In this document: one piece after another, positions 53-35,617 of the stretch
How the letters are laid out: each line of letters begins with the position of its first letter
Numbering within the stretch: the first letter of the stretch is position 1
From: Flavobacteriaceae bacterium
GTDB lineage: Bacteria > Bacteroidota > Bacteroidia > Flavobacteriales > Flavobacteriaceae
DNA length: 35,897 nucleotides
Assembly (NCBI GenBank): GCA_018699935.1
Contig: JABISF010000039.1
Location: 1-35,897, forward strand
Direction: 5' to 3'
Notes under the pieces: model-generated
Told to the model about the DNA's origin: nothing
What the model saw: the letters and a program-made list of their open reading frames with translations, nothing else
Databases searched by the model: none
Program-made: the position numbers and the translations under genes

Positions 53-62
53 GGTCAATAAG

Positions 63-135
63 TGATCTGGCTGGGGCTCGAACCCAGGACCCTCTCCTTA
101 AAAGGGAGATGCTCTACCAACTGAGCTACCAGATC
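63..135 (-). tRNA. tRNA-Lys (TTT)
   Basis: A complete 73-nt cloverleaf reads on the minus strand: acceptor GATCTGG pairs with CCAGATC, followed by discriminator A. There is a D-arm, an anticodon stem TCTCC/GGAGA around loop CTTTTAA (anticodon TTT, lysine), a five-base variable region and a T-arm with loop TTCGAGC. CCA is not encoded. It sits 10 nt upstream of a second lysine tRNA, and a -7-like box lies just upstream. Confidence 0.97.
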
Positions 136-32210: not shown

Positions 32211-33103
32211 AAATCAATAAATATGCTGCCATAGATATTGGATCCAATGCCGTTCGGATGTTGATTGCAAACGTGATTGATCGGGATGGGAAAAGATATT
32301 TTCAGAAAAATGCATTGGTACGCTTACCAATTCGTTTGGGCGAAGATTCTTTCACCTCGGGCGAAATCTCTTCCAAAAAGATCAATCGTATGGTGAAAAG
32401 TATGAAAGCCTTTAAGCACCTTATGAAAGTTCATGGTGTAAAAGACTACCGTGCCTATGCGACCTCCGCACTAAGAGAAGCCAACAACGGGCAGGTGGTG
32501 ATTGAAAATGTGTACAGAAAATCGGGGATTAAGATTGAAATTATAGACGGTAGAAAAGAAGCGAAAATCATTTCCAATGCCAAAGCCTTCAATACGCTCA
32601 ATATGGACAAAACCTATTTGTATGTCGATGTAGGTGGGGGGAGTACGGAATTCAGCATTCTTGAAAATGGGGAACGAATCGTTTCCAAATCCTTTAAAAT
32701 TGGTACGGTACGACTGTTAAACAATCTCGTTAGTGATAAGGTTTGGCAGGAAGTCAAAGCCTGGATTGAAAAACATACCGAACACTTTTCAAAAATTTAT
32801 ATTTTGGGCACCGGGGGAAACATCAATAAACTTTACAAAATGGCAGGCATCAAAGAAGGAAAACCCATTTCATTTCTCACCTTAAACGCGATTTACGAAA
32901 AGCTTTCCAAGATGAGCTATGAAGAGCGTATTGTAAATTTGGAACTCAATCCCGACCGCTCTGACGTTATCCTTCCTGCAACGCAAATCTATTTGAAAGC
33001 CTTGCGATGGAGTGGTGCTAAAGTAATATATGTACCGCAAATGGGGCTGTCCGACGGGATGATCCGCGCGATGGTAAAGAAGCATCCGATTAGCCGTGAA
33101 TAG
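32207..33103 (+). CDS. ppx: exopolyphosphatase, Ppx/GppA family
   Basis: The 298-residue protein has the ASKHA fold of Ppx/GppA phosphatases. Conserved parts are AAIDIGSNAVRM near the start, YATSALREA and the glycine-rich VDVGGGSTEFS at about 140-150. It is the short two-domain form without the C-terminal HD-like extension of E. coli Ppx. It either degrades polyphosphate or hydrolyses pppGpp; the operon with ppk favours the former. I use the ATG at 32207, in the ATGA overlap with ppk, rather than the longer frame inside ppk. The 3' end overlaps the convergent miaE by 14 bp. Confidence 0.92.
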   Translation: MKINKYAAIDIGSNAVRMLIANVIDRDGKRYFQKNALVRLPIRLGEDSFTSGEISSKKINRMVKSMKAFKHLMKVHGVKDYRAYATSALREANNGQVVIENVYRKSGIKIEIIDGRKEAKIISNAKAFNTLNMDKTYLYVDVGGGSTEFSILENGERIVSKSFKIGTVRLLNNLVSDKVWQEVKAWIEKHTEHFSKIYILGTGGNINKLYKMAGIKEGKPISFLTLNAIYEKLSKMSYEERIVNLELNPDRSDVILPATQIYLKALRWSGAKVIYVPQMGLSDGMIRAMVKKHPISRE

Positions 33104-33673
33104 TTTTTTTTTACCCAAATTTTTCATGATGCTTGCTTCAAATTTCAATAAGGCCTTCCATTTTTCATCAACTATTTTCGGATCATCGGCATAGGTTTTT
33201 GCCAATTTTGTAAAGAGGGTATAGTGATGCGCCTCACTGATCATCAGCTTTTTGTAAAACTTGCGCAACTGGGGGTCTTCTATGGCTTCAGAAAGCAATC
33301 GAAAGCGTTCGCAACTTCGGGCTTCAATTAGGGCTGCATAGAGCAATTTATGAATCAGATGTACGGTTTTGGAACCCCCTTTGGGGAAAAAGGTCAGCAA
33401 TTCCAAAACGTATTCGTCTTTGCGCTCTCTTCCTAGGGTATATCCTCGTTCCAAAAGGAGTTCATGCACCATTTTAAAATGACTCATTTCTTCTTGTGCC
33501 AAATCGGTCATGGCACTTACTAATTCGGTTCTTTCGGGAAAACCGATAATCAATGAAATGGCAGTGCTGGCGGCTTTCTGTTCACAATAGGCGTGATCTG
33601 TTAAAATTTCCGCTATGTTTTTTTCGACAATATTCACCCAACGGGGGTCGGTAGGGAGTTGAAGTCCAAGCAT
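33090..33673 (-). CDS. miaE: tRNA-(ms2io6A37) hydroxylase, with a frame change near the C-terminus
   Basis: MiaE is a non-haem di-iron enzyme that hydroxylates the isopentenyl group of ms2i6A37 in tRNA. Iron-binding residues are E31, E62 with H65 (EEMSHF), E117 and E147 with H150 (EAHH). The uninterrupted frame runs on to 32882 for 263 residues, with the last ~70 an antisense shadow of ppx. At the A9 tract (33104-33112), one more A would give LGKKKTIHG and a stop at 33090-33092, for 194 residues. That is the family length and, as I recall, the usual ending. The gene therefore looks one base short, or is read by slippage. It follows dnaX by 6 nt. Confidence 0.87.
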
Positions 33674-33679
33674 GGTAAT

Positions 33680-35538
33680 TTATATTTCTAGGTCAAATTT
33701 ATCTTTTAATACAGCTAAATTAGGATTAATTTTAAGTAGGTAGGCAAACTTCTCATGGGTAGATACAGCCACTTCTTCGTGTACCTTTTTATTGGCAACA
33801 AACTTTATTTTAAGATCGTAATGGTTTAATTTTTCCTTTAAAATGGGAAGAAAATGTTCCATTTCCCGCACCAATTCGTTTTGATTCATGTCGTTGGCAA
33901 CACTGCACGTCAACACATAGTTTTCATCCACAGTAGGTTTTGCCATCCGCAAGAGTGAAACCATATTTTGCGATCCCCGTTCATTTAGTGTTGCAATATA
34001 GGATTCCCAAACCTGATCCAATTGTTCTTGGGTATAGGGTTCAGATGGAAGTGCTTCACTTGGGATGGATTGCTTTTCTTTTTGGCGTAAATTTTTCTTT
34101 AGCGCAATACTGGATAATGAAAAACTCGAAACGGCTGCTTTTGGGGGGATTTCAGCGGTAACCGGTGGGTTTGCTATTTCTTTTGTTTCGGTGACTTCAA
34201 CAGGCGTTGTTTCAGCGGCTTCAACAGTTGCTGTTTCAATAGCCTCATCGACCTTTGTTTCCTCTCTTTTTTGAGCATCGACTTCTGTTGTTTGCACCGC
34301 TACCTTTTCATAGAAAACTTCTTTATCTTCGGGCTTTGATCGCATTTCATCCGAAGGAGTTGGTTCAGGAGTGTCTGGTATTGGTGTCGTTTGCGCTGAT
34401 GAAGAAGTGGGGACAGGAGGTAGGGTAGATGTTCTGGTTTGATCGGCCTCAGGCTGAATTATATAGCCTTTTTTTTTTCTCCATCAAGATGGAGCGAAGC
34501 CAATTGCATTAAGCAAAGTTCTGTATGAACTCGTTTATTTCTACTATTCTTATAATTAAGTGCTGCCGTATTCGTAATCTCTAAGGCGTCGAGTAGGAGT
34601 GAAGGTGCCAATGTTGCTGATTGGGTGCTGTATTGTTGCTGTATGTGTTTCCCCACCTCCATGATGGTTGCCGTATTGGAGTCTTTTGCGAGCATCAAAT
34701 TCCTGAAATGAGTTCCTAGTCCCGTTAAAAATTGAAGTCCGTCAATGCCTCTTTGTTCCAAGCCATCGTAATCCAAGAGCAATCCACTCAATTCGTGTGC
34801 AAAAATCTTTCGCGCCAATTCAAAATAAGTATCGTAATCTAATACATTGAGGTTTTCAGCCACCGAAGCAACACTCAGATTTCCATTGGTAAAACTCACC
34901 ATTCGATCAAAAATAGACAAGGCGTCTCGCATGGCGCCCTCTGCTTTTTGGGCAATTAGAAAAAGTGCGTCTTCTTCGAAGCTTAGTGCTTTGAGGGTGG
35001 CAATTTTGACCAAATACGCTTGAATGGCTTCTATTGGAATTCTTTTAAAATCATAGACCTGACAACGCGACAAAACCGTGGGGATGATTTTATTTTTTTC
35101 GGTGGTAGCCAAAATAAAAATCACATGTTTGGGAGGTTCCTCCAAAGTTTTTAAAAACGCATTAAATGCGGAGGAAGAGAGCATATGCGCCTCGTCTATA
35201 ATATAAATTTTATGTGTTCCCACCTGTGGGGGAATACGCACTTGCTCATTGATTTTCCGAATGTCTTCCACCGAGTTGTTGGAAGCAGCGTCCAATTCAA
35301 AAATATTGAAGGCATAGTCGGAATCTGCCGTTTCTTCAGTTGTACTGTTGATTTGTTTGGCTAAAATTCGAGCACAGGAGGTTTTTCCCACTCCTCTGGG
35401 ACCACAAAACAACAAGGCCTGCGCGAGTTGATTGCTTTCCAAGGCATTTTTCAGCGTTTGAGTAATGCTTTCTTGCCCCACCACCTCCTCAAAGGTTTGC
35501 GGTCGATATTTTAAAGCAGAAACTATAAATGATTCCAT
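33680..35538 (-). CDS. dnaX: DNA polymerase III subunit gamma/tau, in two frames joined at an A10 tract
   Basis: DnaX is the ATPase of the clamp loader. Frame 0 encodes domains I-III: Walker A GPRGVGKT (residues 46-53), IYIIDEAHMLS and the sensor LATTEKNKIIP. It stops at 34459-34461, just past an A10-G tract, giving a gamma-like product of 359 residues. The -1 frame is open from that tract to 33680, giving a proline/threonine-rich linker and a tau-like C-terminal domain, for 619 residues in all. The usual CxxC zinc finger after Walker A is missing (KQINSTTEETADSDYAFNIF), which I recall is common in Flavobacteriia. The start is ATG 35538, since the frame's earlier ATG lies upstream of the -7 box. 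Confidence 0.9.
34451..34478 (-). other. slippery A10-G tract and small hairpin in dnaX
   Basis: The minus strand has ten A (34469-34478) followed by GG, so the frame-0 codons include the heptamer A-AAA-AAG, the same slippery heptamer used in E. coli dnaX. GGAG lies directly upstream. A 5-bp hairpin AGGCT/AGCCT (34465-34469 with 34451-34455) starts at the last A. The frame-0 stop TAA follows two codons after AAG. Confidence 0.65.
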
Positions 35539-35553: not shown

Positions 35554-35617
35554 AGCATCCCCCATTTTGGATGCGAATCCCTTTGGAATAATTCTGTGTT
35601 AATTATCAACAATAGAC

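Follow-up and report, generated by a model that had tools for sequence, protein, structure and literature searches.

A conserved hairpin and A10 tract at the frame switch of Bacteroidia dnaX point to RNA-polymerase slippage as the probable main route to tau

The dnaX gene studied here changes reading frame at a run of ten adenines that is immediately preceded by a hairpin, and the part of the gene beyond the run is under selection as protein in the −1 frame. Slippage of RNA polymerase on this run, mainly with addition of one A, is probably the main route to tau, and the cell would make and need both DnaX proteins, gamma and tau. The stretch of DNA that was analysed (the window) is one contig of 35,897 bases from a draft genome that totals 2.17 Mb over 85 contigs and is 88% complete; going by the project names of similar assemblies, the bacterium is probably marine.

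Frame 0 of dnaX (34459–35538, minus strand) encodes a gamma-like product of 359 residues with domains I–III, and an alternative start, an ATG at 35565, would add nine residues relative to the ATG at 35538. This N-terminal half is recognized as a clamp-loader ATPase by TIGR02397 (369.4 bits, cut-off 250), and the Pfam model of domain III scores 23.7 bits, slightly below its cut-off of 24.4. On the minus strand, CTCCATCTTGATGGAG (34494–34479) is followed by the A10 tract (34478–34469) and then by GGCTATATAATT; the junction reads GGAG-A10-GG, and the tract forms the heptamer A_AAA_AAG together with the next G. Frame 0 continues as D-G-E-K-K-K-A-I-stop, and its TAA (34459–34461, minus strand), which ends gamma, overlaps the tau-frame codons ATA-ATT (34457–34462). 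The −1 frame reads K-K-K-G-Y-I-I-Q-P... (GEKKKGYIIQPE) and contains no stop before 33680. The tail that it encodes (33680–34468, minus strand) comprises 262 codons and a stop, with a P/T-rich linker and a conserved C-terminal domain ending in FDLEI, and brings the shifted product to 619 residues in total. The frame switch at A10-G reported in an earlier, sequence-only reading of this DNA is confirmed, and the features which that reading placed at the site, a zero-frame A_AAA_AAG, a GGAG adjoining the tract and a hairpin, are all present.

The two halves of the gene match consecutive stretches of NF011531, the NCBIfam gamma/tau model, at positions 1–370 and 406–613 (of 614), the latter with an E-value of 3.1e-18, and we regard the tail as genuine tau because both halves match successive parts of one model; neither half alone reaches the cut-off of 685 bits (543.4 and 65.9). 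This supports the polarity proposed in the sequence-only reading, with gamma (359 residues) as the unshifted and tau (619 residues) as the shifted product, the reverse of E. coli. The tau tail had no match in Pfam, and a profile of 39 tau tails gave weak matches only when compared with the PDB, the best being DnaA domain I with an E-value of 0.13. DnaA accounts for two of the five very weak PDB matches (E-values of 0.13 and 0.23), tau domain V reportedly resembles domain I of DnaA, and a distant relation of the tail to DnaA is possible. A strict C-terminal motif, present in only 68 of 133 tails, was left out of further analysis. The position of the run in an open frame is more than chance: of the 22 distinct runs of at least ten A's in the 2.17-Mb draft genome, just two follow an open stretch of over 110 codons on their own strand, namely the run in dnaX (373 open codons) and one in what we take to be a PspC-like membrane protein gene (213 open codons), which stays in frame across its A10 run at positions 1346–1355 of its contig.

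Searches of 38 genomes of the window's genus gave a dnaX match in 33, of which one (G047) covers only residues 1–225 and 32 are full length. Twenty-three of these 32, the window's included, are out of frame, and all 23 carry A10-G; the nine in-frame genes retain the tract, as A10 followed by C or T or, in one, as A11-G. When L026 is omitted as more distant, the out-of-frame genes form a set of 22 congeners in which the tract is invariant. On their tree the dodecamer GAAAAAAAAAAG shows no change at its 12 sites, compared with 147 changes at 57 upstream sites and 104 at 24 downstream sites. The upstream changes follow frame 0 (102.6 synonymous to 44.4 other), and of the 104 changes after the tract 40.4 are synonymous in the −1 frame, 20.0 in the +1 frame and 12.2 in frame 0. 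At the tract, constraint passes from frame 0 to −1, a frame in which selection acts at the protein level.

These data bear directly on two readings in which no tau would be made by recoding. The sequence-only reading had warned that a homopolymer under-call could mimic the frame switch, in which case the true genome would have A11 and a single frame. Homopolymers are error-prone, some single-genome A9 or A11 cases in relatives may be errors, and a neighbouring gene overruns its usual end at an A run: 3' of dnaX, a presumably miaE-like gene (32882–33673, minus strand) reads on at an A8 run (approximately 33101–33108) and overlaps a ppx-like gene on the opposite strand, each relative whose compared stretch reaches the gene end stops in ..HG-stop, and the overrun is either a one-base error in the assembly or a real recent change. 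For dnaX itself the under-call is excluded by the identical A10-G and frame change in 23 of 32 congeners; A9–A12 accompanies a frame change in 38 of the 150 genes listed from the class draw described below, and frame classes differ at constant A10 through the flanking bases. Sequencing error is already refuted for the clade, and for the window's own gene we consider it next to impossible. Nor do the data lend support for a true frameshift mutation after which gamma alone is made and the tail decays. Some bacteria make a single DnaX form, and production of tau is deduced here from the sequence; however, the differences between the tail and those of seven congeners fall mainly at third codon positions (for example 52/42/71), all 39 aligned genes have a tail that matches the gamma/tau model (E-values up to 0.1), and the tract is invariant among congeners, all of which makes decay extremely improbable.

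The hairpin (34479–34494, minus strand; CTCCAT-CTTG-ATGGAG) has a stem of 6 bp, a loop of four nucleotides and a folding energy of −5.8 kcal/mol; it lies upstream of A10 and ends directly at the tract, and the GGAG next to the tract is its 3' arm. The 6-bp stem is intact in 21 of the 22 out-of-frame congeners, in L024 by a compensating change (CTTCAT/ATGAAG), and is broken in L017. Elsewhere in the family the same 3' arm is combined with another 5' arm four bases further out (CTCTATCA....TGATGGAG). Pairing amounts to 0.875 in 47 unique family sequences with Gly before GAA, compared with 0.35–0.60 in slid registers, and is reached in none of 500 shuffles, which ignore relatedness; in the same fixed register, the value falls to 0.645 for the full set of 99 unique phase-1 sequences from beyond the genus, which takes in distant ones (slid registers, 0.33–0.49). 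In distant genera the sequences diverge and the stem is mostly still present. A fold of −3 kcal/mol or better that ends 0–4 nt before the tract is found in 0.95 of 22 sequences of the window's genus (control positions, 0.22), in 0.84 of 105 from the rest of the family and order (0.26) and in 0.85 of 62 from the class sample (0.35), and 24-nt windows have mean energies of −5.8 to −6.1 at the tract, compared with −0.2 to −2.7 far from it. Counted over 189 tract-bearing junctions, 162 have such a fold with its 3' end 0–4 nt from the tract, 15 have weak folds only and 12 have a stem more than 4 nt off; the gap between stem and tract is 0 nt in 108. A stem-loop directly 5' of the slippage motif is kept by compensating changes.

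The hairpin also absorbs two other signals. GGA precedes the tract at 85 of 94 glycines and a CTC codon is present in 21 of 22 congeners; their conservation, first taken as two separate signals, is a single one because both belong to the hairpin. The GGAG was a candidate Shine-Dalgarno-type stimulator in the sequence-only reading, a role that is rejected here, since GGAG ends at the tract start, only 4 nt before the heptamer, and pairs as the 3' arm of the conserved hairpin. In E. coli dnaX the Shine-Dalgarno-like stimulator lies about 10 nt upstream. A search for the 16S rRNA gene in the draft genome gave no match. On the downstream side, folding is unremarkable both in the 22 congeners (mean z-score −0.24; other positions −0.44 to 0.52) and in the 189 junctions (−3.9; elsewhere in the tail −3.4 to −3.9), and a search of the site with Rfam gave no match above the gathering score, with one far below it (PK-BYV, E-value of 4.2). 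A downstream stimulatory stem-loop of the E. coli type was not found at the site. The placement of the hairpin fits RNA polymerase, whose RNA–DNA hybrid spans 9–10 bp, as given in a figure legend of a review (PMC5009743).

The tract and the frame change extend far beyond the genus. A draw of 158 Bacteroidia genomes gave 155 with a match, and counts refer to the 150 listed. A short frame is seen in 40 of these 150, two of them cut by contig ends; the remaining 38 are out of frame, all with A9–A12 at the junction, and 35 need −1 and three +1. Among the in-frame class-sample genes inspected, 27 of 29 keep A9–A11 (L241 and L243 do not). In the family draw, 27 of 150 genes listed among 384 matches have the short frame, one of them (G067) at a contig end. 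A larger set of 198 unique junctions is enriched for out-of-frame genes, which were fetched deliberately, and the class draw is less biased; before the counts, L037, L240, L277 and L290 (contig ends), L170 (no clear frame), L226 (a duplicate) and duplicate junctions were dropped. In this enriched set, 189 of 198 junctions have a tract of at least nine A's, mostly exactly A10, and the tail lies in frame 0 in 96, in −1 in 92 and in +1 in 10. The tract starts at the first codon position in 15, the second in 55 and the third in 16 of the 86 tract-bearing −1 genes, and a zero-frame A_AAA_AAG is present in 48 of them and absent in 38. Nine or more A's are conserved independently of codon phase, in phases 0, 1 and 2, and of the direction of the shift. 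By its own statement the sequence-only reading would be refuted by relatives with one uninterrupted frame and no long A tract; uninterrupted relatives do exist, which counts on that side, yet 93 of the 96 in-frame genes examined keep A9 or more, which counts on the other.

The frame label has to change at least 21 times on a tree of 134 dnaX proteins, compared with 49 times when the labels are shuffled; with only the well-supported branches considered, no fewer than 11 changes are required for 'in frame'. Sequencing error could account for some single flips at A9 or A11, and could not account for the large clades. Four dnaX genes of Lacinutrix (L080, L082, L085 and L099) have A9, A11, A10 and A10, respectively, and between them place the tail in all three frames, a variation due either to natural drift or to homopolymer errors.

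We propose that a hairpin in the nascent RNA forms directly behind A10, a tract about as long as the RNA–DNA hybrid, and that the polymerase would slip at the tract to give mRNAs with altered numbers of A's. Ordinary translation of the unslipped mRNA would yield gamma (359 residues), with its stop three codons past the tract, and an mRNA with one extra A, which has the net effect of a −1 shift, would yield tau (619 residues); from A10, one A has to be added or two lost to reach the tau frame. Slippage of this kind would fill several frames, so that the frame encoding the tail would be free to drift as long as hairpin and tract are retained, which would explain the alternation of in-frame and out-of-frame genes on the tree. 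The use of both directions and all codon phases, the length of about A10, the hairpin and the absence of downstream structure favour transcriptional slippage, and two shift directions serving one function are taken as a mark of transcriptional slippage in the relevant section of Antonov et al. (PMC3711429). The 15 weak folds and 12 distant stems among 189 junctions, the lower pairing (0.645) of one fixed register outside the genus, the broken stem in L017, the removal rather than addition of a base in the hairpin-stimulated slippage of Roseiflexus, and a gamma stop that is not unusually close in −1 genes count against slippage by the polymerase, and the excess of −1 over +1 genes (92 versus 10) could be obtained from either mechanism. 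Of the two mechanisms named in the sequence-only reading, the Thermus-like one fits better. The E. coli heptamer is not what the class conserves (48 of 86).

E. coli-type −1 frameshifting by the ribosome at A_AAA_AAG, here with tau as the shifted product, draws on the zero-frame heptamer, which the window shares with every one of the 23 out-of-frame congeners, and on tRNA-Lys(UUU) (62–135, minus strand) as the sole lysine tRNA among the tRNA genes identified, a count in which 31 of 32 matches were assigned a gene and the genome is incomplete. Among the A/U heptamers compared for E. coli in a section of the same review (PMC5009743), this one shifts by far the most readily, and a sister genus (g36) is out of frame without any poly-A tract. 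However, 38 of the 86 tract-bearing −1 genes lack the heptamer in the zero frame, and 10 genes need +1, which −1 slipping of ribosomes cannot yield. Moreover, the heptamer has no need of A10, downstream structure is absent, the GGAG, as an arm of the hairpin, lies 4 nt from the heptamer where the E. coli spacing is longer, and a hairpin directly 5' of the site would sit inside the ribosome; hairpins in this position are reported to reduce −1 shifting in one system (PMC6321510). Taken as the explanation of the site, ribosomal frameshifting is unlikely, and it may contribute alongside the polymerase. Phase variation at the DNA level, by which cells would differ in tract length and each make one form, could draw on sister genomes that lie one A apart (L016 with A10 and L146 with A11; Lacinutrix with A9, A10 and A11). 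It is very improbable given that A10 is fixed in 23 of 23 out-of-frame congeners, that dnaX is an essential gene, and that the hairpin and the nearby stops in the two remaining frames suggest that a single cell has both forms.

The end of gamma carries a signature of its own. An I-I (or I-L, I-V) pair follows the tract in the tau frame of 103 of 134 genes, and its first codon is ATA in 87 of the 103 (background 25%), compared with 301 of 1,350 at the remaining I-[ILV] pairs in these genes; at 21 further conserved Ile columns, ATT is without exception the most frequent codon. ATA-ATN yields TAA one frame over, and it is this TAA that ends gamma in the window. The codon usage argues that the gamma stop in ATA-ATN is under selection. 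Of 93 in-frame genes, 82 have a stop in the −1 frame within two codons (control positions, 0.25), and in −1 genes the gamma stop lies within two codons in 22 of 86 (control, 0.17; median 3), near and not tightly placed. These stop and ATA counts are inflated by shared descent, an inflation that the control columns, taken from the same genes, share.

In the sister genus g36, dnaX was matched in 18 of the 22 genomes searched (L153, L154 and L294–L309), and every one of the 18 genes is out of frame, none having an A tract. Frame 0 terminates in ...ASL[HL]...K-stop (SSL in one), with TAA in 17 and TAG in one, and the tau tail lies in the −1 frame in 17; in L303 the tail is masked and the junction identical, and L309 contains numerous ambiguous bases. 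As far as GCC-TCT-CTC the changes follow frame 0 (56 synonymous to 15 other), at the next 11 sites they follow −1 (11.5 to 0.5), and in the subsequent A-AAG-TAA they return to frame 0 (6 to 0); after the stop −1 leads, with 18.5 to 16.5 compared with 3 to 32 in frame 0. Constraint switches at TCT_CTC_CAT, and the frame-0 stop is fixed five codons further on. All 18 genes have the CTC, where the best among 38 other Leu columns reaches 0.94, and 17 of the 18 have the TCT, where other TCN columns reach no more than 0.61 and two AGT columns reach 0.88 and 1.0; the GCC, in 15 of 18, is not unusual. L304 has TCA for TCT, which does not fit a TCTCTC site. A hairpin in varying registers is retained in g36 and may account for some of the conservation pattern. 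A_AAG_TAA was rejected as a shifty stop, as three genomes have GAG_AAA_TAA and the −1-like constraint is already seen at CCA-TTT-CGN-GGN.

We tentatively suggest, as a single proposal, that an autonomous cassette of hairpin and A10 spread across Bacteroidia might free the tau tail from a fixed frame, all three frames being used with the cassette kept, and that in g36 a different, poly-A-free recoding site might have replaced the tract. That site could be TCT_CTC_CAT, either with tRNA-Ser moving +2 from one UCU to the UCU that overlaps it or with RNA polymerase skipping 2 nt, or else a short A run behind the retained hairpin.

The arrangement as such was known before. Antonov et al. 2013 (PMC3711429) described the reversed two-ORF dnaX, with gamma in frame 0, tau via −1 and mostly A10, and proposed transcriptional slippage; their set comprises 17 genes from 12 genera, all −1, and its dnaX section describes neither a hairpin nor flipping of the frame. 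In Thermus thermophilus, transcriptional slippage on A9 likewise gives gamma and tau from one gene with an A run ending the shared part and, as in the cassette described here, stops near in both other frames; by contrast, tau is in frame, and the relevant sections of PMC1088944 and PMC5009743 mention no hairpin at the tract. The E. coli gene shares A_AAA_AAG and the gamma/tau outcome with the window, but the polarity here is reversed, there is no downstream stem-loop, and the GGAG is too close and part of a hairpin (compared with the dnaX accounts in PMC5009743 and PMC3711429). The nearest counterpart of a nascent-RNA stem-loop 5' adjacent to the slippage motif is IS630 of Roseiflexus (Penno 2015, as summarized in PMC5009743), where the motif is the heteropolymeric T5C5 and one base is lost, whereas a net gain of one A is expected for A10. 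Long-kept poly(A) frameshifts in insect endosymbionts (Tamas 2008; Wernegreen 2010) are likewise made tolerable by slippage, but they represent rescue of accidental mutations in contrast to one gene with a conserved cassette and two products. In the titles and abstract openings searched, subscription papers and supplements aside, we found no A10 hairpin in dnaX, no repeated flips, no ATA stop and no g36 site. What was known as an arrangement looks, from the present comparison, ancient, conserved and repeatedly flipped.

For annotation, about one quarter of Bacteroidia dnaX genes (38 of the 150 listed) may appear truncated or frameshifted. Gamma and tau determine how the replicase is composed, and there is still debate over how bacteria come to make both and why. 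The genes described here form a natural series in which one cassette has tau in frame, one base out or two bases out, with about 20 switches on one tree, and g36 adds a genus that lost the tract but kept the frame change. The series makes testable the idea that at approximately 50% slippage the encoded frame hardly matters. If the polymerase does slip as proposed, hairpin-stimulated transcriptional slippage would extend from an insertion sequence to an essential cellular gene.
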